Assembly (NCBI GenBank): GCA_015501585.1
Contig: JADNRY010000080.1
Location: forward strand, 62,001 to 126,000
DNA: 64,000 bases
Reading direction: 5' to 3'
Origin: Rhodocollybia butyracea
Lineage: Eukaryota > Basidiomycota > Agaricomycetes > Agaricales > Omphalotaceae
Within the stretch, counting starts at the first letter, position 1. Each line of letters begins with the position of its first letter. Of this stretch, positions 1 to 60,097 are shown in pieces. The notes under the pieces were generated by a model, which was given only the letters and a program-made list of their open reading frames with translations, did not search any database and had not been told where the DNA came from. Position numbers and translations under genes: made by a program.

Positions 1-560
1 CCAGACTTCCTGTCCCAAATCCTTACAGTTGTGTCATCAGATCCAGAAACAATCTGCTGACCATTAAAGCAAAATGCCACTGATGTGACAATGTCAGTAT
101 GGCCTTCCAATCTTTTGAATTCCCTGCCAGAATGCCTATGCCAAAGCCTTACAGTCTTGTCATCTGACCCAGACATAATCTGCTGCCCATCAGGAGAGAA
201 TGCCACTGATCTGACATAGTCAATGTGTCCCTCCAACCTTTGGATTTCCATACCAGACCACCAATCCCAAATTCTCACAGTCTTGTCATTTGACCCAGAC
301 ACAATCTGCTGGCCATCAGGAGAGACCGCCACTGCTGTGACTGCCCCTCTATGGCCCTCTAACCTTTGTATTTCCTTTCCATAATGCCTATCCCAAATCC
401 TCACAGTCTTGTCTGATGAACCAGACACAATCTGCTGGCCATCAGGAGAGAATGCTACTGATCTGACAAACTGACTATGACCCTCAAACTTTTGGATTTC
501 CCTGCCAGAGTGCTTATCCCAAATCCTCACAGTCTTGTCATCTGACCCAGACCCAATCTG
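1..560 (-). pseudogene. WD40 array continuing in frame past the NLR stop codon
   Basis: Minus-strand codons run open from the TAG at 561-563 down to the window edge and encode the rest of WD blade 11, three full blades and most of a fifteenth. Blades keep the 42-residue period and the SPDGQQIVSGS and KTVRIWD signatures. The frame matches the upstream NLR exon exactly, so this is the same array separated by one nonsense codon (TAG where neighbours have CAG). I see no other stop or indel in this part. It is either a recently disabled 3' end of the gene or is translated only by readthrough. The true end of the array lies outside the window. Confidence 0.9.
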
Positions 561-3500
561 CTAGCCATCAGGAGAGAATACTACTGATCCAACATAGTCA
601 AGGTGGCCCTCAAACCTTTGAGTCTCTCTCCCTGAATGCCTATCCCAAATCCTCACAGTCTTATCATAGGATCCAGACACAATCTGCTGACCATCAGGAG
701 AGAAGGCCACTGACTTGACAACCTCAGTGTGGCCCTCCATTCTTTGGGTTTCCCTGCCAGAGTGCCTATCCCAAGTCCTCACAGTCTTGTCATCAGACCC
801 AGACACAATCTGCTGACCATCAGAAGATAATGCCACTGATCTGACAACATTAGTATGGCCCTCCAACCTTTGGATTTCTCTACCAGACTTCCTATCCCAA
901 ACTCTCACAGTCTTATCATATGATCCAGACACAATCTGCTGGCCATCAGGTGCAAATGCAACTGATCTGACATAATGCATGTGGCCCTCTAACTTTTGGA
1001 TTTCCCTGGCAGAATGCCTATCCCAAATCCTCACAGTGTTGTCATACGACCCAGACACAACTTGTTGGCCATCAGGTGAGAATGCTACTGATCTGACAGC
1101 CTTAGTGTGGCCCTCCAATCTTTGAATCTCCTTACCAAGCCGCCTATCCCAAATCCTTACAGACTTGTCATCTGACCCAGACACAACCTGTTGCCCATCA
1201 GGAGAAAATGCCACCGCTGTGACAGCCGCAATGTGGCCCTCCAACCTTTGTGTTTGCCTGCCAGACTGCCTATCCCAAATTCTTATAATCTTACTATTAT
1301 ATGCACCAGCCATCACTCGCTGGCCATCTGGCGAAAATGCAAGTGATGTGACAACCTCAGTGTCGCCCTCCAATCTCTGGATTTCCGTGCCAGACTGCCA
1401 ATCCCAAATCCTCACAGTCATGTCATATGAGCCTGACACAATATGCTGGCCATGTGGAGAAAATGCTAGTGATGTGACACTGTTAGTGTGGCCCTCTGCC
1501 TTTTGAATCTCCCTGCCAGACTGCCTATCCCAAATTCTCATAGTCTTGTCTGATGACGCAGACACAATCTGCTGGCCATTAGGAGAGAATGCCACTGATG
1601 TGACATACCAAGTGTGGCCCTCCAACCTCTGAATCTCCCTGCCAGACTGTCTATCCCAAATTCTCACTGTCTTGTCATATGACCCAGACACAATCTGCTG
1701 GCTATCCGGGGAGAATGCCACCGATGTGACATAGTCACTGTGTCCTTCCAACCTTTGAATTTCCCTACCAGACTGGCTATCCCAAATCCTCACCGTCATA
1801 TCGTCTGATCCAGACACAATCTGTTGGCCATCAGGAGAGAATGCCACTGATGTAACAAGTTTTGTGTGTCCTGTCAGGCTCATCAACTCTACTTCAGCTG
1901 TTCCGTTAAAGTGTAATATTGGAATCCCCTGAAATTGGCTTCTCCAATGTGTTAATAACTTTGACCCAGGCGAGCTTGCAGCCAACGATGATAGGTAAAG
2001 ATGGGGTGTGTACTCGCTTGTAGGATGCGCAAAAAATGCCAAAGCCAACCTTGCTGCATCCGAGATATCTGACAGTAGCTGTTCACGACCTGCCTAGGAT
2101 ATCTCTTCATCAGTTCAGATGTCTACTTTAATTTCTTGCTTACTTACCTGTTTGACACACTGCCGAATTTTGCTCAATGCTGCGCCACACCGTGATGGTT
2201 CCTTGAGCAAGCTCATTGCCTCAATCCAATAGAGAAGTTGGCTTCTGAGGAAAGTTTCAAGACCTTTCTCCACTTTGTCTCCATCAGAGGCAATATATTG
2301 GGCAGATGTCAATTGGTTAGCCCAATATAGGCATGCATAAATAAGGCTTTCACTGATGCACTCTTGTATGCGCTCAGCAAGCTTCTCCACTTTATTGTCA
2401 GGTATGAAAGAAGACGGAAGGCTACATATATTGAATCGAAGTGATGACTCCATTACCCGGAAGCAACAGTGAGCAAGGATTATGTGCTGATTGGTTATGT
2501 TACAGTATAGTTCCAGCCTCCGATCATGATAGACAAAGTTGGCGTGCGATGGATTGAACATGAAGTCCAGGAATGATGTATGGTACCATTCAACTCTGCC
2601 ATTAGAAATTCTTAAGACAGCATGGAGACTTTCCAGAACTTTGCAAATTGCCTCTCGAATCTCTTCAACATTTCCATGATCATGACCCAGCATCTCTGCG
2701 AGTGTCTCTACGGATACTCGCTCCTCTGTGCAGAGTATTGAATGAAGTATACCTCGTCGAGAATTAAATGCTTCTGGGATGTCATGGAAAGTGATAAAAA
2801 GACCTGCCAATACCTGCTGGTACATGCTGTCCACCAAGTCCATGCCTGTGATATTATTGGACCAACTCCCAGCAAGCTCCTTGAGGAAGTGGAGTTGTTC
2901 AGACCTAGTGAACCGGTTACCCCGTTTACAATACCGGACAGCAGTGGCTGCTGCAATAAAAAGTCCATCAGCTTTCCTTGCAATGTCCTCCAGAATATTT
3001 CTATCATCATTACTCGTAAATTCATGCATTTCATTCTCAAGATACTTGAGAATATCCTTTTCCACCTCTGCTTTTGGAATGGTGTACAGCTCACACACTG
3101 CATCTCGGGGAAATGACCCACAAAGTTTCTTCAGGTGTGGATCAGGCCTGCTAGTGATCAGAAACTTGATACCCCGTAGATGCTGCTTCTGTACTGCTCC
3201 CAGCAACATTTCTAGAAATCTGAAGCCATCTCCTTGCTCAACCTCATCCAGTGCATCCACAATTACAAGCACAGGTGGAAGATCAGGGGAGCGGGCTGAT
3301 GTGGCCTCTTTCCATGGCTGAACAAACAGCACTTCCATTTGTTTTGAGAGAACCTCCATAGCCGACTCAGTTAGTGTTTGACAAAGAGAAGATGAAAAAG
3401 CCCTTGATTGCCAGCAAAGCTGGTATACGATGGTTGGAATTATGTAGACTTGTCGTCGTGCATCATCAAATTTGCGTGAACAGAAAAAAGTGATTGGTGG

Positions 3501-4651
3501 CGGAAGACCAGTTGTGGTGTCGAAGTGATGTGCAATGGTCCGCGATATAGTTGATTTTCCGGATCCACCCTCTCCGTCCATCCAAAATACAGGTGAAGAG
3601 GTTGGGTCACAAGCCCATGTTTTGATTTTCTTAAGCACGGAAAGGCGGGTTCCGGCTGTGCAAGTACTTTGGTCAATTGACCCATGGTCGAGATTGATTG
3701 GTGATATATTCCATTTTGCATGTTTAGAGTGAGCCCAGTTGTTCAAAAGCAGCCGCTATCTTGTGCTTTAGCTCAGTCTATGAAAGGTATATAGACCTTG
3801 ACAAACCTCTACTTTGTCTTTGATACCTTCCAAGTTTTGTTCAATGCACAGTGAGATATCCAACTGAATGATGACTCTTTAGTTGAGCTGCAAACGGGAT
3901 ATTACATTAACCTACTTGGAATGTAACTGTCTGTTCCTGGATATCCTTCAAAGCGCGTGTAATTTGGGCTCTGTTTTCGGATCTTTCGATAACTGCTTTC
4001 CACGTTTGCATACCACGAATATCTTGCATGGCGTGAAGCTTGTCCACAAGAAACCTGTACAAAGCGTGCATATTCAAACTAACAATGAACACCTTGGTGA
4101 CAAACCTTGCAAAGCGTTCAGCGGCAGCTTGTAAATCGCTGTATACAATAAGCACTTAGGCTTCAATGTAGTAGACAAACTCGATGAATCACGCACGAGA
4201 ACACCTTGGTTTCCCTGAGCCTAGAGTCCACAGCTTCCAAACGTCTTTTCACAAGATCACAAAGCTGGGAAAGGTCCTCGTTGTTATCTTTCACAGTCTA
4301 TCTGATATTCAATATACATATTGCTGCCATGATGTTCAAGCTACTCACATTTGCAATCTCCATTAGTACATTGAGCGCTCCAACTACATTTCTTGCGATC
4401 GGCACTCCATCCAAACATCTGTCCAAGCTACTGAGTACAAGCTGTGCGCTATCCAAAGCCATCTTCCATGGAGATGGCGGTCCAAGTTGCGAAGCTGATT
4501 CGGCCTCCGAGTTGTGACCTGGATCAGGATGTGATTGGGCTTCAAGTTGTATTGCAGTGGATGGAGCCGGAGATGATGCTCGCGATGAGCCTGGCAGGCG
4601 AAAGACCTTAAGGAATTTATCTCGTTTCCGTGGGTGCTGAGCTTGCGACAT
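561..4651 (-). CDS. NACHT-WD40 NLR (NWD/STAND protein), six exons, truncated by a nonsense codon
   Basis: Cytoplasmic STAND receptor of the fungal NWD type, a family linked to non-self recognition and programmed cell death. Modelled exons: 4651-4349, 4297-4197, 4138-3916, 3863-3807, 3755-2148 and 2093-561; introns of 51-58 bp have GT-AG ends and phases that join exactly, giving 1274 aa. Residues 1-230 form a Ser/Pro-rich start and a helical N-terminal region without a recognised effector domain. NACHT follows, with the P-loop GEGGSGKS at about 289-296 and Walker B LVIVDALDE at about 391-399. From about residue 830 there are ten complete 42-43-residue WD40 blades and the start of an eleventh. 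The blades are nearly identical, which suggests recent amplification or concerted evolution, while surface positions differ. The gene stops inside blade 11 at a TAG although the array continues. The start ATG is at 4651; an in-frame TTG at 4666 is ignored. Domain calls are firm; expression and activity are unknown. Confidence 0.85.
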
Positions 4652-5479: not shown

Positions 5480-7640
5480 TTCACCTACTTAATTTGACCG
5501 TACAAATTTCTTCTCGGTTCAGCCCGAGGTTGAAAACGGGGTAGATATATATTGTATTGGTTGAAGGATACAAAACTCTTCATAGCAGTCGCTACTAAAA
5601 GCTTTGCAGTCGATACAAGTATTCCGCCACGTACAAACGCAGACTGGGAGTACGGACTACAATAAATAGGAGTAAGGAGCTGTGGCAGAACGAGAAGCAA
5701 AAAAACGAAAACAAGGACAACGGATCAAAGAGCACCAGGAAAAAATATTGAGTAACGATACCATATCCGCCGATTCACTCTTCCCTTCAAATAAGAGTTT
5801 CGTCATCGATCGAAACTTCTTCGCAGATTGTGATAAGTATTCTCTTTTAGTTTGACGTCTGCATCTCGTCGCAAACCCCATCTTTCCCGGACTACTACTC
5901 TTCACCTGGCAACACTAGGTACTCTATTCCCATCGTTATTCCAGGTCCCGCCTCGTAGTTCTGCCTCATCAAAGCTCAAACATTCCCAGGTGCATACCCG
6001 AAAACCTATCCTTCCAAAGGAATATTGCGTTGCGGGGCCCTCTGGTATCGAACGGACCAATCATCGATGAAGATAATATCATATTTGTGCATTCCAGCAG
6101 GAGAGGAGTCCGGTGAGCGAAAGAGAGGCAACAAGAGGGATATGTCGGAAATCATAGAGACCAGTGAGTCTGATGAGGAAGCCAAGCAAATCCCGAAGGG
6201 GAGAATTATGTGTGGATGTCATACTAATAAACGTTCCCCAGTCCTACAATCCCTCAGCGCTCGGCCTTCAAACGATACCAGCATTCCCATTCCAAACACC
6301 GTGATCTGCGATCCCAATATCGGTGGGGGCAACACTACAGATGTTGAACCTGGTGAGAGAGGGAACAGAACGGGTGAGAGATGTCGTGGAAGAAAGACTA
6401 GCGAGCAGAAGGAAGGAAGTGGATGACGCCTGGGTGACTCGGACAAGCGAACCCGTTCAGCACTCCAATCCCATCCCCAAACGTACTACGCCACTTCTAC
6501 CCCGACGTGCCCATTCCCAAACAAAGAGATTTCGACACCTCCGTTACTCCTGCACTGGTAGTCTACGTATTGACTGGATACTCGACACATCCTTCCCTTC
6601 CCTTCGAATCAGACTTGTTTGCAAACAGAACGACCCTGCCCATCCGAGTCCTCCAGTCAAACTGTTTTGTCTCTCAACCGGTTTGCAGTTTTTTGAGGTT
6701 GGCCAGAAGATCGGTGTGTTTTCTATCTTCCAACTGATGGTGGAGAAGAGCCGTTGGAGATAGAGCAAATATTCGGCGATAGAGGAGTCGCTGGACAATG
6801 TCAAGGTCGCTGGTGAGAGAAATGAGTCAAGTTCCGGCGAGGGGGCTGATATTCGTAAAATTTTCGAAATGTGGATGAAAAGCGAAGAGGGGACCAAGCG
6901 CAGGAGGACCGGGAGGATGCTATACATGGCCATAGGATTACACGAGGACAAGAATTCATGGAGTTGGGTCTCCAACGCGTATTCAACGTATCTGTATATG
7001 CAACATTCGAAGTAGAACGCACGAGTATGGCAAGGCGTTGGCGTTGGCGCGTTGGCCTTAGCGTTAGAGATCTGAGGTTTTGGGGAAGAGGAAGAGACGG
7101 GGCAGAGCTAGAGTCGGAGCCGGAGGAAAGAACGCCGATAAAAAGACAACGTAGAGTGGATTCCTGTAACAATCTTTCTAGCTTAGTAGCTAGCGCAATA
7201 TACCCTGGGCAGTTACAGCGTCGATCATTGATTGTTGTGTGTACGCCAACCCATCCCCCACGTATGCTCTATGCTCTATGCTCTGCTATTAGGCCATAGC
7301 AGAAAGCCTTGAGCTCAAGTAAACGTACCTCATAGCATGAACCACCTCAAATCTTTGTTCCTTCACAAGCTTCCTTCAGTACTTCAGTTGTGGACCAGAT
7401 AGATTTATTAACTGGCTCATCCCGAGTTTGAAATGGCATAGTCGATGCATTTGACATTCAGCGCAGAAGGGAACATTGGAGCTCAATTTCACTAGATACG
7501 AGTAGGAATAGCCAGTACTGTGGATATGTTGCCAGCACGGAAGTGCAAGTCCTGGAAGTGGTTGAAAACAAAGCAGATTTACGGACCGCAAACACGGCTT
7601 GGAGCCTGGGCGTCTAAATACTTTTCGTCTTCTTCCGATC
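5480..7640 (+). repeat. F-box upstream block, copy A of a dispersed ~2-kb duplication
   Basis: Large parts recur in the same order at 21110-23093 and partly at 25690-26750: the antisense-like FQPRAE stretch near 5520, the GCAGACTGGGAGTACGGA segment near 5640, the CTTTCCCGGACTACTACTC segment near 5880, a GAGAGGCTAGCGA segment, and the GGCAGTTACA segment near 7205. No frame stays open across copies, so it is treated as non-coding sequence duplicated together with the F-box gene that follows. Short pieces of it also occur elsewhere in the window. Confidence 0.6.
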
Positions 7641-8531
7641 ATGCCTCTCTGTTCGTCTTGTGGTGGAAACTCATTCATTCCTCGAGTAGTTGTGGATTCA
7701 CCCGGATTACAACTCAAATTGCGGACAGAATCCGGTCCTGCATCTGTCCAACCAGATGAAGTCGCCTCAGTTCTCCGAAACATCGAACGAGATCTTGAGG
7801 ACTATGAAGCAGAAATTTCCCGCCTTGGACAGGAAAAGGAACGCTTGGAGCACTATGCGGCTCAACTATGGTCTCGGAACTCACCACTTCGGAATGTTCC
7901 CAACGAGATTTTACAACACATCTTTGATGATTGCTGCGATATGAACAGTTTTCGGGTCGTCAATCTCGAAGACAGGCTGCCCATGCATACTTCTCAGGCT
8001 CTCAGTAGTAAACCTGCAATGGTGATTAGCTCAGTCTGCTCGCGCTGGCGGAGAAACGCGCTCTCTATGCCTGTCATATGGTCTAGAATATCACTATATT
8101 GGAACAGGTATGACAACTGGGAAAATGAGGATATGGAAATATTCTTTCCCCTGTCTAATTTCCTCAGTCGGTCTCAACAACATCCGTTAACAATCATCCT
8201 TGAGGTAGACGCAGACCCGTTCATCTATCAAAGAAGACTTCACCCGCTACTAGAGCACCTTTTTGGACAAATAGGCCGCTGGCAGGAACTGTCTTTCACC
8301 TGTAGTCGCTTCACCTTTGAATACCTGCTGGGTTGTAGTGTTATGACCCAGATCTAAATCCTATACACCCAATCTTTTTTCTTCTGTAACCAACTATGAA
8401 CACTATCATTAATACTTCTACTTAACATTTTACATTCATTAGTTATTCAACATCATTTGGGTTAATGCTGCACACATTCTTCCAGAACACCAGAATGATC
8501 TTTAACAGTCACTGCACAGTCTGCACAGTCA

Positions 8532-15938: not shown

Positions 15939-16914
15939 ATGCGTCGCTCGAAAACCTCATCCAGTGATGACTATATCCCCCTCATACCTGAAGCTGAAGA
16001 CTCAGGAGAAGACTGGCAGCCATTGCCTATTGTCGCCCAGCCGACGCATGCCAGGATCGTATCCATACTTTCAGCCGTTCTCTCGATCTTAGCGATCTCA
16101 GTCTCATTTTTCCTTGTCGGGATATCTTTCAGGACGACCATGTTTCCCAGAACGCTTAACAGCCTCACAATTCTCACACCATACCCCAACAAAAATCAAG
16201 TAGATATATTGCTAGCGTCGAAGAAATGTTCGTGCGCCTTCATTTTCTGATACACCCGGTCACATATATAACGATTTCAAGCTCCAAAGATGTGGTTTTC
16301 AGGTCGGATTATCAACGTTAACTCGAACGAACCTAGTAGGGTAAAGACTCCAGGAAGTCATGTTGCCATTAGTGGTACCGTACGCCGTTCCTCGTGCATA
16401 TTCGTGCTCATCTTGACGTTTTGTGAGTCTAGGATTCTACTTTCTTCCACTGGGTGACCAACCTTTCTTCTACGGCGTCTTGTTACATTGAGGCCGTTGT
16501 GAGCAATGCCTCCGCCCTTGAAGCTGGCGGTAAGACTTCTTACATATCTACGGGTAATATTTCTGCGCTTGAAGTATGGAACGTCACGACCTTCCCAAAG
16601 TCCGGAATCACCTGGGACACCCGTCCGCAGCGGCTCAATCTTTTGGGAACAGTTAACTTTACAGAAGATTATCTCAGATCATATGATACGGGGTGGCAGC
16701 TGAGGGATCCAACGCCGAGGTTTAAATGTGGGGGCAAGAAAGAGACAAACATCGAAATTGCTTGTTCTGCAGATGCGGTGGAGAACAGTGGATGTTGGTT
16801 AGAGTTTGAGACGGTGTTCTCCGATCCTGCTTTGTGTAAGTTGTGTCATCTTTCTGAATTGAGTGTCCCTTTCGATCTCTTTGTGCAGCAATTGACTTGC
16901 AAGAACTTCGTTGA
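15939..16914 (+). CDS. Type II membrane glycoprotein, But2 C-terminal-domain-like
   Basis: Four exons: 15939-16227, 16282-16379, 16433-16835 and 16889-16914, introns 53-54 bp, phases joining exactly, 271 aa. A hydrophilic acidic N-terminus is followed by one membrane segment at about residues 40-62 and an extracytoplasmic domain. The domain has five N-glycosylation sequons (NLS, NAS, NIS, NVT, NFT) and the segments ITWDTRPQRLNLLG and FKCGGKKETNIEIAC, which resemble basidiomycete proteins carrying a But2-type C-terminal domain (an aromatic-TRP core, then F-C and EVAC). The role of these proteins is unknown. The gene lies 0.4 kb upstream of the UstYa-type gene on the same strand; a shared function is only a guess. 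The last tiny exon is the least certain part. Confidence 0.65.
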
Positions 16915-17311: not shown

Positions 17312-18051
17312 ATGACTCGAAGATACTGGGCCCTCCCCAGGACCATTGTCATTGCTTTGATTTTCTCCTTGCTTGCAAGCTGCATCATGAACCTTCTCGT
17401 CACTTTCAAACTTCTGTGGGAAACCTCTGAGAATATGGATAGTCACAGTACGCAAGTTATTGTTCTAGTAGGATCTCCAAATCTTTAATGGCAGCAGGCT
17501 ATGAAGGAAACGACTACCCGGTCATGCTGCCTCTTCATGTTCCTCCCGTTGCGCTGACATTCGAGACCTCGGAGCCATTCTCTCTCGCAGGTTTCGAGTC
17601 CTGGGCACAATGGCGCGCGATGGACGTATTTCCCAAGGGCAACGGGTTTGTCAAACTCGGTCCAAAAGGTCCGCCTTATCTTTCCTGAAGACTTGGTTGT
17701 GCTCGAAAGTATATGTCATAGGGCGTCCGTTTGGTATCAGCATGTTTCATCAGATGCATTGTCTCCAGATCCTTCGCAACACCATACTCATGAACGATGT
17801 ATCTGACCATACAGAGCACTGTTTAAACTTCCTTAGACAGGTGAATTGATTTTCTGTTTCTATTCTAACACTACTGAAACTGCTGATAGGCGGTATTGTG
17901 CGCATCGGATACCACCCTTGATGCTTTAGATGTTGATGTTAATGGGACTTTGAAAGGGACAGACGGGATAGGGCAGACGCATATATGCCGGAACTGGGAG
18001 ACAGTGTTTGAGTTTGTTCACCAAAACCAGCTGAGCCCAGCTTGGGATTGA
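17312..18051 (+). CDS. UstYa-family (DUF3328) oxidase-type protein
   Basis: UstYa-type proteins catalyse oxidative cyclisation of ribosomal peptides (dikaritins such as ustiloxin) and related chemistry in the secretory pathway. Four exons: 17312-17447, 17495-17668, 17722-17840 and 17890-18051, 196 aa. An N-terminal membrane anchor spans about residues 10-33. The two family HxxHC motifs are present: HQMHC at 113-117 and HTEHC at 133-137. The C-terminal segment GIGQTHICRNWETVFEF also fits the family. The first and third introns are canonical; the second uses a weak GTCCGC donor and is the least certain junction. The neighbour at 19298, on the same strand, encodes a repeat precursor with Tyr-x-Ile cores, the kind of substrate this family acts on. 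No sign of decay. Confidence 0.85.
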
Positions 18052-19224
18052 TCTTTAGTTGGATGTTTACAACTGTATATCACTTCAACCAACCTCAGAT
18101 CCATATAGCGGTATATTCCTGTCAGTCAAATCTATCGGACTCCCAACCGTATGGCGCATGATATTTCGAGATTAGTTGGTTTTTTGTTTCTTTTGAAATT
18201 GCGCCGTATGTGCACCATTCTAGCTTTTCACTGCTAACTTACTGGATCATGCACTCGATTAAGCTCGATCTTGGTCTCAAGTGCGGCATATCCTGTTCGG
18301 TAGGTTTTTACATATACCTTTCTGATTTTGCTGATGTCTCTAGCTCCAGGACGCACGGTGAGCCTTCTCTCCATTTCTTTCGGCGATGAATCATGATCAT
18401 CAGACGTTCATGATATGAAGGTTCTGGGCAAAGATGCACCTCGCTTGCTCCTTGATCTGATAGTACTTAAGACTCCTATCTAAAGAAAGGTGGTAGTAAC
18501 CTGGGGTCCTAGTCAGTGGCCGCCGGAACTGATGTCAACCCCCAAAATCGGGCTGTTCAACTCTGTTCAACCTCGTCAAACCAACATTGAAACAGCAGCA
18601 TTGTCATATATTGAGGTTCAGCCTGCTCCGGAGCTACCTGAATTCCCTGTTTGGGGAATGACATCAGTTTTAGCCAACTGTTGAGCGGCCCAGGGTGATT
18701 AGGATGATTGTAATGCAAATGCCGATCAAAATGTTAGTTCAATTTGGGGCTGCAAAGAATATTGGTTACCAGTGGGTTGGGGGCCGAGCTGGTCGCAAGA
18801 AGCGATAATATTAAGATGTAAGCGGTCATGCTGCCTCCCCCTCCTGCCAGTGGAAGGAAGCCAAATCGATCATATAAAACAGTGAATTTCAATAAGTTTA
18901 GGCATCTTTGCCTCATGAGGCATGGCGCTGAGATGGCTCTTATGATGATAGGATAAGATCTCGGGCATAAAGCCAAATAGTAACTGGTACTATGTAGGGC
19001 ACAATGTTCCATCATTGCTCCATCTTGGAAATTAATGGAAAGAAGTGGAAGGCCTCACACTGTCCCACCGCGGTTCAGCTTCTAATTCCATGAGGGCAAC
19101 TTTCGGGGGTATTTGTTGGAAGTCACATTGAATTTACATGATGATTTTTGCTTTACTGCTTACTTCGCGAGATAAATATTGGATCGGTGACACCAATCGT
19201 TCTCACCGGGTAAAATCGAGGATG
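18052..19224. other. Intergenic between the UstYa-type gene and the repeat precursor
   Basis: No supported gene. The 64-codon frame at 18490-18684 and the minus-strand frame at 18734-19015 show no recognisable features. The right end holds the precursor promoter. Confidence 0.45.
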
Positions 19225-19232
19225 TATATAAG
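19225..19232 (+). promoter_or_regulatory. TATA element of the repeat-precursor gene
   Basis: TATATAAG lies 66 bp upstream of the ATG at 19298, a normal distance for a strong, regulated fungal promoter with a short leader. Confidence 0.55.
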
Positions 19233-19297
19233 CTAGAAAGAAAGAACTGAACTACCAGCAGCGAGCTCCTCTCGAAATCACTACATAGGACTACATC

Positions 19298-19754
19298 ATG
19301 CGTTCTAGCATCTTCCTGACTACCCTTGCTCTTGTCCTGGTTGCTGTACAGGCCTCTCCTCTTGCAAGCGTGTTCTATGGTGTCGCAGTAAGCTTTGACA
19401 CCCATCCTCCACTAACTTACCAACCTGAAATGCAAAGGGCGATGTCGATATCGAAACCCGTGACAGCAAAGGCTATGATATCACTGTAGGTTTCAATGCG
19501 CATCCTTCGTTAGCTTACTAACCTGGAAATGCAAAGGGTGGCGACGTCGAAAAGCGCGACAGCAAGGGATATGACATCACTGTAAGTTTATATAAACTCA
19601 TTCTCCGCTAACTTACTAACCTAAATATAAAAGGGAGGTGATGTCGCAAAACGCGATAGCAAGGGCTACGGTATCACTGTAAGCTTTCAAAAACCTCCCC
19701 TAACTCACTGTCTTCCTGACTAAAACATGCAAGGGAGGAGAGAGTGAAGAGTAA
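19298..19754 (+). CDS. Secreted Kex2-processed repeat precursor, candidate dikaritin RiPP
   Basis: Five exons encode 82 aa: 19298-19387, 19438-19485, 19537-19581, 19634-19678 and 19734-19754; all introns (50-55 bp) are phase 0 with GTAAG/GTAGG donors and CTAAC-type branch points. Exon 1 is a signal peptide plus short spacer (MRSSIFLTTLALVLVAVQA). Exons 2-4 each carry one repeat: a GDV block, a basic site (TR in the first, KR in the others) and a core opening DSKGY. Cleavage after the basic pairs would release DSKGYDITGGDVE, DSKGYDITGGDVA and DSKGYGITGGESEE. Each core contains Tyr-x-Ile, the spacing cross-linked in ustiloxin (Tyr-Ala-Ile-Gly). Introns are homologous to one another, so the exon-plus-intron unit of about 97-100 bp was amplified as a block. 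A UstYa-type gene lies 1.2 kb upstream. The peptide's identity and activity are unknown; an alternative is a signalling peptide without cyclisation. Confidence 0.8.
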
Positions 19755-25689: not shown

Positions 25690-26750
25690 CTACTACTCCA
25701 CCTCCGGTCCCACTTTCACGACTCACCCATCAAACAATACCAGCATTCCCGTGATCGCGACATATAAGCATCAGTGGAGGTTCTACTACACTTGCCGAAC
25801 CCAGTGAGAAAGTAAGCTGAACTGCAGAAGGATACCGCGGAAGAGAGGCTAGCGACGGGCGAAAGAAGAAGTTGTAAATGATGCCTGGATGACTCGGACA
25901 GACGAACCTGTTCCGCACTCCATTTCATTCCCAAACGTACTACACTACTCCTACCCCGACGTGCCCATTCCCAAACAAGACGAGATTCGAACACCTCCGG
26001 TACTCCTGCCCTGGCAGTCAACGTATTGACTGGACACTCGACACGTCCTTCCCTTCCCTTCGAATCAGACTTGTTTGCAAAAGAACGAGTCCTCCGGTCG
26101 AATCGTTTCGCCTCTCAACGGGTTTCTAGTTTTTAAGTGAGTCGGCCTGAGGGTCAATGTGTTTAGAGAAGAGCTGCTGGCGATGGAAGCGAATATTCAG
26201 TGATAGAGGAGTCGCTGGAGAATGCAAAGGTCGTCGGTAAGAGAAATGAGTCAAGTGCCGGTGAGTGTACTCAACCAGCTAATTTTCAATAAATTGTCGA
26301 AATGTTGATGAGAGGTGAGGTAATCGAGCCCGGCGTAGAAGAGGTTAATTTGGTAGAACAGGGACGAGAGGACCGGGAGGATGCTATACATAGCCATAGG
26401 ATTACGGTTCAGTAGGACGAATGATAAGCGATTCGTGGAGTTGGGTCTCCAACGCGTATTCAACGTGTATCTGTGTATCCAACATTCGAAGCAGAACACG
26501 CGAGCATGGAAAGGCGTTGGCGTTGGCGCCTTAGCCTCAGCGTTAGATCTGGATCTGAGGTTTTTGGGAAGAGGAAGAGACAGGGCGGAGCTAGAGCCGT
26601 AGGCGGAGGAAAGAACGCCGAATAACAAGATATAGTGTAGAGCGTATTCCTGTAACAATCTTATACCCTGGGCAGTTACAACATTGACTGTTGATTGTCG
26701 TGTGCACGCCAACCCATCCTTACATGTATGAACTATGCTCTAGACCAGGA
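25690..26750 (+). repeat. F-box upstream block, copy C (partial)
   Basis: The middle and end of the ~2-kb block of copies A and B recur here: CCCATTCCCAAACAA near 25967, the CTGGCAGTC-ACGTATTGACTGGA segment, GGGTCTCCAACGCGTATTCA near 26443, and CCTGGGCAGTTACAAC near 26668. The F-box 5' end does not follow. It is a truncated, non-coding duplication. Confidence 0.55.
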
Positions 26751-28100: not shown

Positions 28101-30649
28101 TTTTTGAATAATTCGACTAATACACGAAAGTATCTACACGCAATAGACACCAGATTCACAACTCTATTACACTTCAGGACCACCTCCAGTGCAGAGGCCC
28201 CAACACCGGAACTATCTTGGCCAGATTAACCTTAGCTGTAGCCAGATCACGCTTCATCGTGTCAAGATGACCTTGACCGTAGCCAGATCACCCTGAGCCG
28301 TAGCCAAATCAGTCCGAGTCGTGGCTAGATCAGTCTGAGCGGTAGTCAGGTTATTCTGGGCCGTAGCCAGATCACTCCGAGCCATCGCCAGGTTACTCTG
28401 AGCAGTGGCCAGATCACCCTTAACCCTGGCCAGGTCACTCTTCATCGTAGCCAGATCCCGCTGAGCCGTTTCGAGCTTTGGAGCCAATTTTTTCGCTCGT
28501 TCAGATCTCCCCTAGTCGTTGCCAAATCTTTTCCGCCTTTTCGACCTTCCCCTGCATCTCCTGATCGATTTTCTAGCCTCCTTCAGATCCGTTTCAAGCT
28601 TTTTGTCTCGTAAGCTGACTGTCCTGGTCAGCCTTTGCCAATTTACGAGACTTCTCGTCAGCTGCTGCGTTCGCTGGCCAGTTGGCCTTGTATTGATCCA
28701 CCAGTTGTAGAGCCCGGTCAAGAGCCTGCTTCGAGCTCTCGGCATCTACACGCCTAGCCTGTTCTGTCTTTGCCCGCTCTTTCTCAAGGATTTCGATCTT
28801 CTCCCGCATCTCTCGAGTCAAATTTTCAGCGTCTTTTGAATCGTTTTCAAGCTTTTCTCGCGCCTGCTCCAACTCGTGAGATTTCTCGTCCAACTGCTGT
28901 GTCCGCTGCGCCAGCTGGTCCTTGTATTGGTCCGCCAACTGGAGAGCTCGGTTAAGAACCTGCTTCGAGCTCTCTGCGTCTACCTGTCTAGCCTGTTCTG
29001 TATGTTCCCGCTCTTTCTCAACTTTTTCGACTTTCTTCCGTATCTCCTGTGTCAATCTTTCCGCGTCCCTCAAATCATTTTCAAGCTTTTCTCGCGCAAG
29101 CCGACTGGCTCGACAACCTGTTCCACCTCTCGAGACTTCTCGTCAAACTGCTGTGTCCGCTGCGCCAGCAGGTCTTTGTATCGGTTAAGAGCCTGCTTTG
29201 AGCTCTCTGCATCTACGCGCCTACCCTGTTCCGTCTTGGCCAGTTCTTTCTCAACATTTCCGACCTTCTCCCGCATCTCCCGCGTCAATCTCTCAGCCTC
29301 TTTCAAATCAGTTTCGAACTTTTGTCTCGTAATGCGACTATCCTGGCCAGCCTTTTCCAACGCGTGAGACTTCTCATCCAACTGCTGTGTCTTCTGCGCC
29401 AGCTGGTCCTTGTATTGACCTGCCACTTGGAGAGCCCTGCTAAGAGCCTGCTTCGAGCTCTCTGCATCTACACGTCTAGCCTGTTCCGCCTTGGCCAGCT
29501 CCTTCTCGCCATTTTTGACCTTCTCCCGCATCTCACGCGTCAATCCCTGAGCCTCTTTCAATTTGTTTTTCGAGCGTTTGTCTCGTAAGGCGACTATCTC
29601 GGTCAGCCTGCTCCAGCTCGCGAGACTTCTCGTCTAACCGCTGTGTCGTCTGCGTCAGCTGGTCCTTGTACTGATCTGCCAGTTGGAGGGCCCGGTTGAG
29701 AGCATGCTTCGAGCTCTCCGCATCTACCCGTCTAGCCTGTTCTGTCTCGACGAGGTCTTTCTCAACTTTTTCGACCTTCTCCCGCATCGCTCTCGTCAAA
29801 TTTTCACCTTCCATCAAATCCTTTTCGAGCTTCTGTCTCGTAAGGCGACTATCCTGGTTAGCCTGCTCCAACTCGTGAGTTCTCTCCTCTAGTTCATGGG
29901 TCTTTTGCGCCAATTGAGTCGCTTCCTCCTTGTATCGATCAGCCCGCTGAAGAGCCTGAATAAGAGCCTGCTTCGAGCTCTCTGCATCTATACGTCTAGC
30001 CTGTTCCGTCTCGGCCAGATCCTTCCTCGCTTTTTCGACCTTCTCCTGCATCTCTCGATTCAGCTGTTCGGCCTCCTTTGTGCCATCCTCAAGTCTCCCT
30101 CTAGCGAGTTTGACTCTCTCTGTCGGCCTTCTCCGCTCTCTGCTCAGCCTCGAATGCTGCCTTCCTCGAAACCTCCACTCTCTCTTCAGCTGCAAGCGCC
30201 GCCTTCTTCGAAGCCTCTGCCCTCCCTTCAGCCTCAAGCGCCACCTTCCTCGAAGCCTCTGCTCTCTCCTCGGCTTCGAGTACCGCTTTCCTCGAAGCCC
30301 CCGCGTCGTTTACAGCATTGTCCCTCTCCGTCCTCAAAGTACCGGATGTCTCACGTTCGATGATCAGCTGTTGTAATATCTCCTGAGATTGATTCTCAGT
30401 ATCGTTCTTTTGCTTCTCCAAAACTCTGTAATCATCCGCTGCTTTCTCGAGGCTGGTTCGGAGCTGTGAGCATTCCGCAAGGAGGTCGTTGACTTTGGGT
30501 TTTGATTTGGGAACGGGAGTGGAAACCGAAGCCAATGACGATACGGAGGTCGTCGATGATGAGGATAGAGAGGTGAAAGTACGCCGTGTACGTGTACGCT
30601 CAAGGAGGCCAGTCATAGCACGAGCAATTCCCGGATTGATTGAGCTCAT
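28100..30649 (-). pseudogene. Long coiled-coil repeat protein gene with several frameshifts
   Basis: The start at 30649 gives MSSINPGIARAMTGLLERT, then a Ser-rich stretch and a coil of EERAEASRKVALEAEGRAEA-type repeats. From about 30100 downward there are five repeats of about 75-80 residues with the order LTREMREKVEKVEKEL, TEQARRVDAESSKQALNRAL, LADQYKDQLAQ-TQQLDEKS. The frame changes near 30110, 29560, 29090, 28615 and again near 28275; each change is a one- or two-base shift after which the same coil continues. Two lie in A-runs (ACAAAAAGCTTG type). It ends in a heptad array. As written it cannot make one protein; it is either decayed or carries assembly indels. No enzymatic domain is seen. 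A fragment of the same gene is at 35826-36070. Confidence 0.7.
28254..28470 (-). repeat. 21-bp tandem repeat encoding a 7-residue DLATAQx heptad
   Basis: At least nine tandem 21-bp units (plus-strand GCCAGATCACCCTGAGCCGTA type) translate on the minus strand to DLATAQG, DLATTRT, DLTTAQ-like heptads with Leu at a fixed position. They form the C-terminal coil of the gene above. A period of exactly 21 bp keeps the frame on expansion or contraction. Confidence 0.85.
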
Positions 30650-42587: not shown

Positions 42588-43154
42588 TCAAACTCGGATC
42601 CATTGAAGCTCTCCCATGTGCTCTTCATCCGTGAATGCAATCTCCGTCGCAAAGCGTATATACTCCTTGTCTTTCCATATATCAATGTCCTTTGCATGAT
42701 AATTACTCGCAATATAAATGACAGTATACGATCTTCCGTCTACGAACAGATTGGTGTAATAAGGACGCAGGGGGAGCCCACTGTAAAATGAATAACACAG
42801 CGGAAATGAGTTACTGAATGGGAAACTGAATGGGAACCATGCGTGTACATACCTTTCTGATACGTAGACGCCACCAAGCTTTTTATTCCATGGATGTACG
42901 ACACGAGCATGCCAGAAATTGGAAAAGGAGCCTCCATGATAGTCTGGATATGCCTTGTAGAGATTATCGAGTTCTATAGCCCAGCCTAGATAATAATGTG
43001 GCGTTCGATGCAGGCAAGGTGGTGTCATTACACCCCTCTGCGCTGGTGGTTTATTGAGCGGTAGCCGTTTGAGATGAGGACATTTTCTGCGAATTTTTTA
43101 GCGACGTAGGTATGATCTCGAACGGAATACTTGCTTTTTGATCTGAGTGGTCAT
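42588..43154 (-). CDS. 148-aa protein of unknown family, copy 1
   Basis: Three exons on the minus strand: 43154-43135, 43086-42853 and 42780-42588, 148 aa. The first intron has a GC donor (GCAAGT) where paralogues have GTAAGT; using it keeps phase 2 and rejoins the conserved KCPHLKRLPLNKPP. Conserved segments are TPPCLH-TPHY-LGW near residue 30, YPDY-G near 55, V-EPW--- near 72, YTNLF near 95 and TDEE-MGELQWIR at the end. No signal peptide or membrane segment, so probably intracellular. This is the most diverged of four copies. It lies 0.55 kb from copy 2 on the same strand. Function unknown. Confidence 0.85.
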
Positions 43155-43380: not shown

Positions 43381-43701
43381 GATGAGTCAAGTTTGGAAAC
43401 AAGTCTCGGTGAGAAATTGTCGAAGGGAGGAGGACATAGTATATTTTACGAGGGAGAGAGGCGTGTGGGCTACAGGAAATGTCAGAGAATGTCAAGATCG
43501 TGAGTATAGTACTTGCTGGACAAACAAGCGATGGAGAAACTATAACGAAATGGAGAAAATTCACGAGGGGAGAACCTATGGTAAAGCTTTGCTTGTCTCC
43601 GGCAGATAAATTATTTCACACCTCAAAAAACGGTCAGCATGTTAAACGAATGTCAATCAATATTAATCGAAAAGTGCTGTTGTACAACATGAGATAGGTC
43701 T

Positions 43702-44289
43702 CTACCATCTTCCTCGGATCCATTGAAGCTCTCCCATATTCTCTTCATCTGTGAAGGCAACTTCTGTCGCACAGCGTATATACTCCTTGTTTTTCCATGC
43801 GTTGAGGTCCCCTGCATCATAATTACACGTAAGATAGACGATATAATAGTATTTTCCATCTTCGAACAGATTGGTGTAATTAGGACGCAGTGCGAACCCA
43901 CTGTGAAATGAACAACACAGTAAGCATCAGCAATCAGTGGGTCAGAGTTAATTGAAAGGGGCCGATGATGTACATACCTCTCTGTTACGAAGATGCCAGC
44001 ATACTTTCTCCATGGTTCTATGACACGAACTTGCCAGAGATTGGAGAGACTTCCACGATAGTCTGGATATACCTTGTGGAGTTTATCGATATCTATAGTC
44101 CAGCCTAGATAATAGTGCGGTGTTGCATGTAGACAGGGTGGCGTAATTACACCCTTTGGTTCTGGTGGTTTGTTGAGCGGTAGACGTTTGAGATGAGGGC
44201 ATTTTCTATGAAACTGTCAGCTACTAGCCTACGTTACACGTATGCATGATCTCGAACGATTTTACTTACGCTTGGATCTGAGTGGTCAT
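43702..44289 (-). CDS. 148-aa protein of unknown family, copy 2
   Basis: Exons 44289-44270, 44205-43978 and 43900-43702; introns 64 and 77 bp; phases 2 and 2; 148 aa. The start MTTQIQAKCPHLKRLP is split after codon 6, so the first exon is only 20 nt, as in all copies. Open throughout, with the family blocks (PPCLHATPHYYLGWTIDIDK, VIEPWRKYAGIFVTE, LRPNYTNLFEDGK, CNYDAGDLNAWKN and ENMGELQWIRGRW). Differences from copy 3 are mostly single substitutions. Function unknown; the intact frame in all four copies suggests selection. Confidence 0.9.
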
Positions 44290-45885: not shown

Positions 45886-46474
45886 ATTCTCGAATCTCGA
45901 TACTGAGTACTTATATACCCAACAGATGCGATACTTATAGATTACAATGTTAGCTTATATCGACGAGTACAAAGTTGTTGTCTTTCTTCCTTCCTTCATG
46001 AGCAATTCATACGTTGCACATTTATTTCCCTTCACATGTTGTGCTTGTTTGATTAAGGAAGTGCATACATCGAACTGTGCTGATAGTACTAGATAGCGCC
46101 ACCAAGTACTAACCAGCCGATGAACACAATGTGAGGCTCCCCTTACCTTGTACAATGCATGCTCTGGCTTGTGCGCGAGAGACAGTAAATATACTGTTTC
46201 CCTGTCTCAAATGACGATTGTCTAGTAGCATGTACTTATTGTAAGTTGTTTCAACTTTTATTTCTTGATCCCACAGAAACACTATTATGTTTCCCATTAA
46301 TTTTTATTTGCCTCTTAGAAGTCAGATAGACGTTGGAAATGCGGTGGAATAAGTATTCGATATACTTTTACAATTAGAAGCTAGAGTTGAACTTAGCAAA
46401 AAAAAAAACAGTCGGTATGTTGAACAGATGTCAATTTAACAAAAGGTGTAGTTGAACGACATGAGATAGGCCTA
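45886..46474. other. Intergenic
   Basis: No supported gene in this stretch downstream of both the secreted-protein gene and 148-aa copy 3. Confidence 0.4.
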
Positions 46475-47046
46475 CTATCTTCCTCGGATCCATTGAAGCT
46501 CTCCCATTTTCTCTTCATCCGTGAAGGCAACTTCTGTCGCACAGCGTATATATTCCTCGTTTTTCCATGCATTGAGGTCCCCCGCATCATAATTACACGT
46601 AAGATAGACGATATAGTAACATTTTCCATCTTCAAACAGATTGGTGTAATCAGGACGCAGTGCGAACCCACTGTGAAATGAACAACACAGTAAGCATCAG
46701 CAATCAGTGGGTTGGAGTTAATTGAAAGGAGCCGATGATGTACATACCTCTCTGTTACAAAGACGCCAGCATACTTTCTCCATGGTTCTATGACATGGAC
46801 TTGCCAGAAATTGGAAAGGGAACTTCCGCGATAGTCTGGATATGCCTTGTGGAGTTTATCGATATCTATAGTCCAGCCTAGAAAATAATGCGGTGTTGGA
46901 TGCAGGCAGGGAGGCGTAATTACACCCTTTGGTTCTGGCGGTTTGTTGAGCGGTAGACGTTTGAGATGTGGGCATTTTCTGTGAAACTGTCAGCTACGTA
47001 GGCATGATTTCGAACGATTTACTTACGTTTGGATCGGAGTGGTCAT
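46475..47046 (-). CDS. 148-aa protein of unknown family, copy 3
   Basis: Exons 47046-47027, 46978-46748 and 46670-46475; introns 48 and 77 bp; 148 aa. Compared with copy 2, exon 2 is one codon longer (GSSLSN) and exon 3 one codon shorter (stop TAG directly after GGA AGA), so total length is unchanged. Family blocks are all present, ending EKMGELQWIRGR. Upstream of the start are an ATTTAA box and CACGTG, then repeat R1. Intact; function unknown. Confidence 0.9.
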
Positions 47047-58442: not shown

Positions 58443-60097
58443 ATGGACAATAACCAAGATTCTGTCTCTAATGTCTGGGATCTGAAAGGTATCGAATTCG
58501 GAGAGGGACAGAATAGGAAAAGTTATAGGATTGTTATGGAGAATCATGATGGACCGTGTTCTTTCCTCACTATCTGTATGTGGCCATTTACTTACTACTT
58601 GTGATGATCAAGGCTGAGACTATGCCGGCTTAAACACAGGCAATATCCTCATCCTTCGTGGCGAGATGGAAATTCCAGCTGGACAGATGTCCGTCTCATA
58701 CGAATACCTCTCGCAACTTGTAGTCGCGCACTCACACTCCCTCAAGGGAAGCTCTGAGTGGGTGAGAGAATCTGTGCTCAAAATAATGCCTCGAACGCAA
58801 AGTAAGCCTTGGAAATACCAAACCCCGCATTTCAGGTCTGTACTGACCCAAACTCAAGCGACCGTGGAGCTCAATCCAGTGTTCACTAAAGCCGAGTCAT
58901 TTTGTGAAGGTGACGAAGGTGACGAACTTGGCTCCTTGCTTAGTGTACTGGGAATCAAAGTGGTACACGGATGGCTTGTCGATCCGGAAAGTCCTGAAGC
59001 AGAAACTATGTCTCAGGTGTGGAATCATGCCAATGCGGTTTGCTTGGTAGCTGAAGCTCTCAACTCCGATGGCTCATCTGAAAAAACAATCAAAACCGGT
59101 ATCTTTCAACCTCCTACTTACTCTTCATCGATACATTTTTTGATTACATTTTTCTTTACCTCCTCTAGCGGAAACCATCAAGAAATTCTTCCTCGACACC
59201 CGATCTCAGCTAACATCGTATGGTGTTTCTCAACTTGCATCCACTACTGAACCCGGAGCGCTCATGGCGCTTTATCGCAACTTTCATATCTCAGTTCTCT
59301 ATAAATGCGATGCATCCAATGATCTCGGTCTATACTCCCTGGTCGCCGACCACGGCTTGGTAAATGAACCCTCTGTTATTTGGGAAAGAATAGAAGATAT
59401 TGGCGGAGGCTCACCGACCTTTGTTGACTCTTGCTTTGTCAAATCAAGCCCTGCTGTCGAGTACGTGGTGCACAACTCTGTCCGTGGAGTGTTCAGCTGA
59501 CTCGAGCTCTTTCCGTGTAGCCTCGCTTCCCTGGAATACTCTCGAGCGCAGGAACAACTTCGAGCGGAGGAATTTCGAGCAGAGGACCTTGAAGAGGAAA
59601 TGAAATTTCAAGAGGAGGAACGAGTAAAGAAACGAGTGAAGAGAGACCTTCAAGCGGAGGACCAGAGAAGAGCGGAGAAAGAATGTCTAACGGAGATTGC
59701 AGAGTGGCTGCAAAAGAGGAAACAACTTCGAGAAAAGTGGGAACAGGACGAGAAACAGCTCACATGGACCTATTATCGCGCTGAACTTAGAAAGGAGATG
59801 ACAGTAAACCGAGAATTTGAGGGATTTGACGGTATCTATTCCATCTCGTTTACCACCAGGTCTAGGCCGAGGCAGCAACCAATTGAAAGGCATGAAACGG
59901 AGCACAAGCTAACAGAATACTTTGATTACACTGAATTTGATACGGAGGACAGTAGCATCACAGTCTCGCGACGACTCGTTTGCTCTGTACCCTACATAAG
60001 CAATTACGCTGCTCGGCCTAGGCTGAGCCAACGGGCACAGACAGAGAATACGCCGAAACCAAATGGGAAAGCGCCATCGTCGTGTATCATCATGTAG
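58443..60097 (+). CDS. MINDY-family (DUF544/FAM63) deubiquitinase with C-terminal CaaX motif
   Basis: MINDY enzymes are cysteine proteases that cleave K48-linked polyubiquitin. Five exons: 58443-58575, 58640-58801, 58859-59098, 59169-59460 and 59521-60097; introns 57-70 bp; 467 aa. The N-terminus WDLKGIEFGEGQNRKSYRIV leads to the active-site motif ENHDGPCSFLTIC with nucleophile Cys39, then ILILRGEMEIP. Further family blocks are LGIKVVHGWLVDPESPEAE, RNFHISVLYK with the likely catalytic His218, and NEPSVIWERIEDIGGGSPTF. The position six residues before the Cys is Glu, where the family usually has Gln. After the domain come a charged coiled coil of about 100 residues and a C-terminal CIIM, a prenylation (CaaX) signal, suggesting membrane attachment. 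Intron 2 (57 bp) is in frame and could be retained. This is the only intact copy of four. Confidence 0.88.

Follow-up and report, generated by a model that had tools for sequence, protein, structure and literature searches.

The butter-cap mushroom Rhodocollybia butyracea carries a gene for a UstYa/DUF3328 oxidase-like protein next to a gene for a putatively secreted precursor with three near-identical repeats, and the two, possibly together with a third gene, probably make up a ribosomal peptide locus for a Kex2-processed RiPP of the dikaritin kind, whose Tyr-x-Ile core is likely oxidised by the UstYa protein. Dikaritins are recognized by a DUF3328/UstYa protein with two HxxHC motifs that adjoins the precursor (PMC12048977), and this is the arrangement found here; near-identical repeats between Kex2-type sites, by which KEPs are defined, are likewise present in the precursor, the cleavage sites being predicted. 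The logic of the pathway would be the same as that of the known dikaritins; it differs in the core, the basidiomycete host and the exon-cassette precursor. A literature search with most subscription papers and supplements outside its scope yielded no published account of this core or of a precursor with one core per exon, in agreement with the first-pass annotation, which had called the core sequence new to it; the letter string DRKGYDI turned up as a text match in one insect paper. The pairing of KEPs with UstYa genes in basidiomycetes is already in print.

Coordinates refer to the window, that is the whole stretch of 64,000 nucleotides that was analysed (G000:C1161:62001-126000, from a 95.6-Mb assembly in 1381 contigs), unless another contig is named.

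15939..16914, + strand: gene X, about 260 aa, hydrophobic near the N-terminus and with a But2-like part; position of the first intron uncertain.
17312..18051, + strand: UstYa/DUF3328 oxidase-like gene, spliced translation of 195 aa from four exons (17312-17447, 17498-17668, 17722-17840 and 17890-18051), introns all GT..AG.
19298..19754, + strand: putatively secreted repeat precursor, spliced translation of 82 aa from five exons, introns all GT..AG.
19298..19387, + strand: precursor exon 1, a short leader preceded by the putative signal peptide (by inspection).
19438..19485, + strand: precursor micro-exon 2, spacer GDVDIETR and core 1, DSKGYDIT.
19537..19581, + strand: precursor micro-exon 3, spacer GGDVEKR and core 2, DSKGYDIT.
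19634..19678, + strand: precursor micro-exon 4, spacer GGDVAKR and core 3, DSKGYGIT.
19734..19754, + strand: precursor exon 5, acidic tail GGESEE, then stop.

Both gene models equal NCBI proteins of Rhodocollybia butyracea, the UstYa model being identical to P0002 and the precursor model 100% identical to BDP27DRAFT_1449375 (P0047), which bears out the linked pair proposed in the first-pass annotation. The precursor ATG follows the UstYa stop at a distance of 1,246 bases on the same strand, matching the proposed 1.2 kb and common orientation. An N-terminal hydrophobic helix and both of the predicted HxxHC motifs (HQMHC and HTEHC) are present in the spliced UstYa protein, which has 195 aa instead of the 196 originally given, and Pfam PF11807 (UstYa) matches it with 60.5 bits against a cut-off of 25. 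The spliced precursor likewise agrees with its earlier description as an 82-aa protein with three DSKGY units containing Tyr-Asp-Ile-Thr or Tyr-Gly-Ile-Thr: DSKGYDIT follows TR in the first unit and KR in the second, and DSKGYGIT follows KR in the third. Its core exons measure 48, 45 and 45 nt and are separated by phase-0 introns of 50-55 nt. The putative signal peptide, as judged by eye, is MRSSIFLTTLALVLVAVQA, followed by SP, and the four precursor paralogues compared agree at 13 of their first 22 positions. A scan for at least three similar 11-mers after [KRAQT]R or RK within 1.5 kb returned 16 clusters, which fall into three regions of the window (the precursor gene, a WD40 array and Arg/Glu-rich repeats at 28.6-30.3 kb) and no cluster in 30 of 30 dinucleotide shuffles; the basic-site repeats of the window exceed chance, and the scan by itself does not show whether a given repeat protein is a peptide precursor. 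The WD40 array belongs to the region 3-3755 on the - strand, where an ORF with 14.7 tandem copies of a 126-bp WD40 repeat (78% match) comes after a NACHT-domain ORF, a layout which we take to be STAND-receptor-like; at 28597-30309, also on the - strand, 256-bp and 42-bp tandem repeats encode the Arg/Glu-rich repeats, which are coiled-coil-like by eye.

A pathway of two genes had been proposed initially. The pair itself stands and the count of two may be too low, as the But2-like gene X adjoins the UstYa gene at all three sister loci (the window, C427/C509 and C552) and may be a third member of the pathway; its matches to Pfam But2 (15.9 and 23.1 bits) lie below the cut-off of 24.2. Further UstYa genes have weak gene X matches nearby (E 0.21-0.30), which were disregarded.

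The sister locus on contigs C427 and C509, presumably two haplotypes of one locus, has a UstYa gene that is 91% identical to that of the window at the DNA level and, on each contig, a 13-unit precursor with one unit per 45-54-nt exon and a frame that is open to the stop. All introns are GT..AG, the first in phase 1 and the rest in phase 0, and the spacers of all 26 units end in KR, RR or QR. C427 holds a unit with the spacer GGDVEVEKR that is absent in C509, and units with the spacer GGDVEIEQR occur four times in C509 and three times in C427; the equal total of 13 units comes about via one loss and one gain. A protein search (7995 candidates scored) provided no annotated counterpart of the 13-unit model among the matches listed, whereas the three-unit precursor is annotated, and predicted-protein surveys may therefore undercount genes with an exon-cassette layout. 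Three proteins from the search with the 240-residue precursor (E 0.005-0.085) look like unrelated repeats and were discarded.

Units were compared across the three of the window and the 13 each of C427 and C509 (n = 29, with a further copy on contig C24 left out). Their eight core codons occur in 11 DNA variants that encode three peptides, namely DRKGYDIT in 26 units (every C427/C509 unit), DSKGYDIT in two and DSKGYGIT in one. In pairwise comparison pS was 0.480 and pN 0.013 (0.481 and 0.000 within C427 alone), values whose ratios are descriptive because units within one array are not independent. Synonymous variation affects seven of the eight core codons, Ile being encoded by one and the same codon in 29 of 29 units; the Tyr and Ile residues are unchanged throughout, and the spacers vary in length and sequence and always end in KR, RR, QR or TR. 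This pattern points to strong purifying selection on the core. The UstYa genes appear to be constrained too, as judged from dN 0.0155 and dS 0.196 (NG86) for the window gene versus that on C509 and dN 0.116 and dS 0.649 for the window gene versus that on C552.

On this basis, the precursor would enter the secretory pathway via its putative signal peptide (recognized by inspection) and Kex2 would cut after KR, RR, TR or QR, whereupon the basic ends would be trimmed; the expected products are peptides of 13-16 residues with acidic tails, in the window DSKGYDITGGDVE, DSKGYDITGGDVA and DSKGYGITGGESEE. Calculated [M+H]+ values are 1355.5961, 1297.5906 and 1428.6125 for the window peptides and 1424.6652, 1794.8504 and 1523.7336 for those of the C427/C509 locus. 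The membrane-bound UstYa neighbour would then oxidise the core, most likely at the Tyr of the invariant Gly-Tyr-x-Ile, and this Tyr would probably be joined to the Ile two residues on in an ustiloxin-like manner, yielding a cyclic product that may serve in defence or signalling outside the cell. Copy number would change by gain or loss of whole intron-plus-exon cassettes, each comprising one spacer and one core. A kexin-type P_proprotein domain is matched once in the genome, on C1.

UstA is thought to be cut by Kex2 into 13-14-residue pieces first, which have a Tyr-x-Ile core with ED and KR flanks, and disruption of ustiloxin genes shows that UstQ, UstYa and UstYb are needed for the first cyclic intermediate, while in the asperipin pathway one UstYa-type protein, AprY, is required (PMC6514808). 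The ustiloxin (UstA/UstYa/UstYb), phomopsin (PhomA) and asperipin (AprA/AprY) systems share with the window locus a putative signal peptide, Tyr cores between KR-type sites and a two-HxxHC UstYa protein next door; ustiloxin has the same Tyr-x-Ile spacing and asperipin a similarly minimal gene set. In contrast to these systems, which a review places under ascomycetes (PMC9233826), the present one belongs to a basidiomycete, has the core DSKGYDIT/DRKGYDIT, one core per micro-exon and a But2-like gene alongside. Tyr and Ile would be residues 5 and 7 of the predicted Kex2 piece, whereas in ustiloxin and phomopsin Tyr is the N-terminal core residue (PMC9233826). Epichloecyclins, derived from GigA, also come from a multicore precursor that is likely cut by Kex2 and have a ring with Tyr and Ile; they differ in that Ile is N-terminal and Tyr internal, and in their ascomycete origin (PMC9233826).

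The older definition of a dikaritin cluster comprises five genes, among them those for a tyrosinase, a peptidase (absent in some) and a methyltransferase, and asperipin has four genes without a tyrosinase. An exon-wise search for tyrosinase (PF00264) gave no match near the pair and two matches in the genome, on C805 and C179; S41 peptidase (PF03572) was not found in the genome by an exon-by-exon search; and no methyltransferase was detected in the 10 of 40 window ORFs of at least 150 aa that were scanned with Pfam, a set in which introns break genes. The pair resembles the smaller asperipin cluster in that it has no nearby counterpart of the tyrosinase known from the ustiloxin and phomopsin pathways, and the presence of a kexin-type gene together with tyrosinase genes located elsewhere favours an asperipin-like oxidation by one UstYa protein.

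A less likely possibility, which is a variant of the reading given above and compatible with its other steps, is that the UstYa protein introduces a modification other than a Tyr-Ile ether, such as a hydroxylation or a cross-link with Asp, Thr or Lys. Hydroxylation and chlorination are among the reactions to which UstYa-type enzymes contribute, and such enzymes are also present in pathways to non-ribosomal peptides and polyketides (PMC12048977), asperipin is linked via Tyr side chains in a different pattern (PMC6514808; PMC9233826), and the tyrosinase is not linked; Gly-Tyr-x-Ile, on the other hand, has exactly the Tyr-to-Ile spacing of the YAIG core of ustiloxin, and its Ile retains a single codon across the 29 units. 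The ring is the step of the proposed dikaritin-like pathway that is most open to doubt, both in view of linear KEP peptides in four agaricomycetes (see below) and of a poor fold prediction, as AlphaFold applied to P0002 with 30 of 42 homologue proteins (P0002 included) returned a model with a mean pLDDT of 57 and a pTM of 0.36. A PDB search with the single UstYa sequence gave no match at E up to 1, and a profile search gave just three weak matches to unrelated proteins (E 0.2-0.27).

We consider it rather unlikely that the window copy is a duplicate of the 13-unit locus that is falling into decay and yields no useful product. It has three units versus 13, an altered first exon and one core with Gly for Asp, and its copy on C24, while 99% identical in the precursor, contains two exons of altered length (47 and 46 nt, total length unchanged), such that the sequence read as is loses the middle core and keeps the third. 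The altered exon lengths may reflect an assembly error or decay; C24 is a short contig of 18,861 bases that breaks off within the UstYa gene. The window allele, by contrast, is in frame and its UstYa gene looks constrained relative to the sister gene. Furthermore, core position 2 is Ser in all three window units as against Arg in 26 of 26 sister units and in all four units of a Mycena homologue, and the DNA backgrounds are unit-specific: window units 2 and 3 carry the synonymous marks of sister units 12 and 13 (AAG GGA TAT GAC; GAT..AAG GGC TAC) and differ from them at the codon for position 2 despite these common marks. From these few units we infer that the Arg/Ser residue was changed unit by unit or through very short conversion tracts; by either route, the array seems to have been kept uniform as one product. 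Apart from this, window regions 5490-7901 and 25991-26742 both match overlapping parts of C24 at 68-83%, besides the colinear match at 98.5%, which indicates a multi-copy repeated element.

It is unlikely that the locus releases linear signalling or defence peptides by way of Kex2 and that the UstYa gene lies beside it fortuitously or has another target. Agaricomycete KEPs, which are numerous in genome surveys, carry a signal for secretion and are cleaved at dibasic sites between short repeats, features that are predicted for the precursor described here as well, and the peptides detected in Coprinopsis, Lentinula and two Pleurotus species are reported to be linear and minimally modified (PMC9769878). 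In basidiomycetes, DUF3328 genes were located near just 103 of 1680 KEPs (6.1%), for which the author of that survey offers two readings, a differing motif or cyclisation hardly occurring in this group (PMC7329392). Against linear peptides stands the recurrence of UstYa adjacency in the same genome. A search with PF11807 retrieved at least 18 matches at 14 places; adding the window gene, C552 and the fragment on C24 brings the count to 17 places, or about 13 loci once presumed haplotypes are paired (our pairing). Up to 10 kb were inspected around every other UstYa place, in addition to the window, and a repeat precursor was present within about 4 kb of UstYa at six of the 13 loci (the window, C427/C509, C552, C431, C517 and C1161:151 kb), with one core per exon at five of them and a single exon at C1161:151 kb. 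The claim that a Kex2-type repeat precursor is paired with UstYa in a mushroom thus extends to sister loci of the same genome. At C552, the UstYa gene is 78% identical to that of the window at the DNA level, and the precursor has a similar signal peptide, a 72-nt first intron at the same position and one core per exon; its cores differ (e.g., GTDKEFYEFIPDVTARKT) and are separated by RK, not KR, which makes Kex2 processing doubtful there. The further precursors are:

C431:20122-20812 (L032): precursor with a MKLTTFSAVLVLAVTASAQ.. start beside UstYa at C431:19042; the unit KRSSDVDDAFPGWN occurs four times without change, each copy on its own phase-0 exon of 42 nt.
C517:197208-198215 (L035): precursor divergent from UstYa at C517:195246; units KRD[DN]S...SPDIFAKKAW[EG]AE, one per phase-2 exon of about 80 nt, early exons modelled in part.
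C1161:151476-152140 (L029:1476-2140), also L030 (C921): precursor whose repeats (SDAEDGETLTSLGDFRR) are separated by RR, lack Tyr and all lie on one exon; it is divergent from a UstYa gene and located about 25 kb past the right end of the window.
Ends of C427 and C509 (L022:1-339 and L024:1-340): fourth precursor, truncated at the contig end, with a signal peptide of the same family; on C509 it reads ..VEKRITALYYITGG.. and ..KRITALYYITGGAHDSSSK.., and C427 and C509 differ by 2 bases there.

A UniRef label 'RxLR effector protein' on P0048, one allele of the fourth precursor, was taken as automatic and not as evidence. At the remaining seven of the 13 loci, a tandem-repeat finder and a basic-site scan over up to 10 kb found no repeat array; these are weak negatives, because the former missed the three-unit array of the window itself and the latter missed the C552 array in its coding frame. 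UstYa may therefore serve other tasks at these loci, or the scans missed arrays.

The constancy of the core Tyr and Ile in 29 units and their recurrence in Mycena also speak against linear peptides. A profile of four precursors found a 105-residue protein of Mycena polygramma (P0050, E 2.5e-12), the remaining three matches being Rhodocollybia butyracea proteins. P0050 repeats DRKGYDI within four copies of DRKGYDILYDEVE, the first after AR and the other three after KR. Its contig has 720900 bases, as has that of the UstYa homologue P0029, and these equal lengths alone suggest that precursor and UstYa gene belong to one locus in this fungus as well. UstYa homologues with 39-62% identity occur in Mycena, Stereum, Leucogyrophana, Hygrophoropsis, Sparassis, Piloderma and Athelia. 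The earlier interpretation as a dikaritin-like RiPP locus is therefore supported in part, by the linked pair, its recurrence, the apparent purifying selection on the core, the Mycena core and the basidiomycete host. Coding noise or a plain DNA repeat is ruled out by a core pN near zero versus a pS of 0.48.

Core, enzyme and locus can now be named together, and a second genus has the same core. We put forward only tentatively that there is an Agaricales-wide class of UstYa-dependent cyclic peptides with exon-cassette precursors, in which cores are added, lost or swapped as splice units and of which many members are missed by automated gene calling. If so, cores could perhaps be skipped by splicing, their number and sequence would differ even from one nucleus to the other in the same mushroom, and missed gene calls would help to explain the apparent rarity of basidiomycete dikaritins. 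Schistosome micro-exon genes, which belong to unrelated animals and are not RiPP precursors, also encode secreted proteins from many small symmetrical exons; the Rhodocollybia precursor differs in that its exons are near-copies of each other. The words 'intron' and 'exon' are absent from the main texts of two KEP surveys (PMC7329392; PMC6339444). Mushrooms have UstYa families, such as that of Pleurotus, for which 16 UstYa genes, six of them developmentally expressed, are reported (PMC8893723); the precursor described here is a candidate substrate for the UstYa protein encoded beside it.

Two further observations concern the right half of the window. Three ORFs on the - strand (42591-43097, 43656-44216 and 46396-46989) have a near-common start (..KCPHLKRLPLNKPP..TPPCLH.TPHY.LGW.) and form a local repeat family, and an ORF at 58618-59247 on the + strand matches MINDY deubiquitinase with 57.7 bits against a cut-off of 27.
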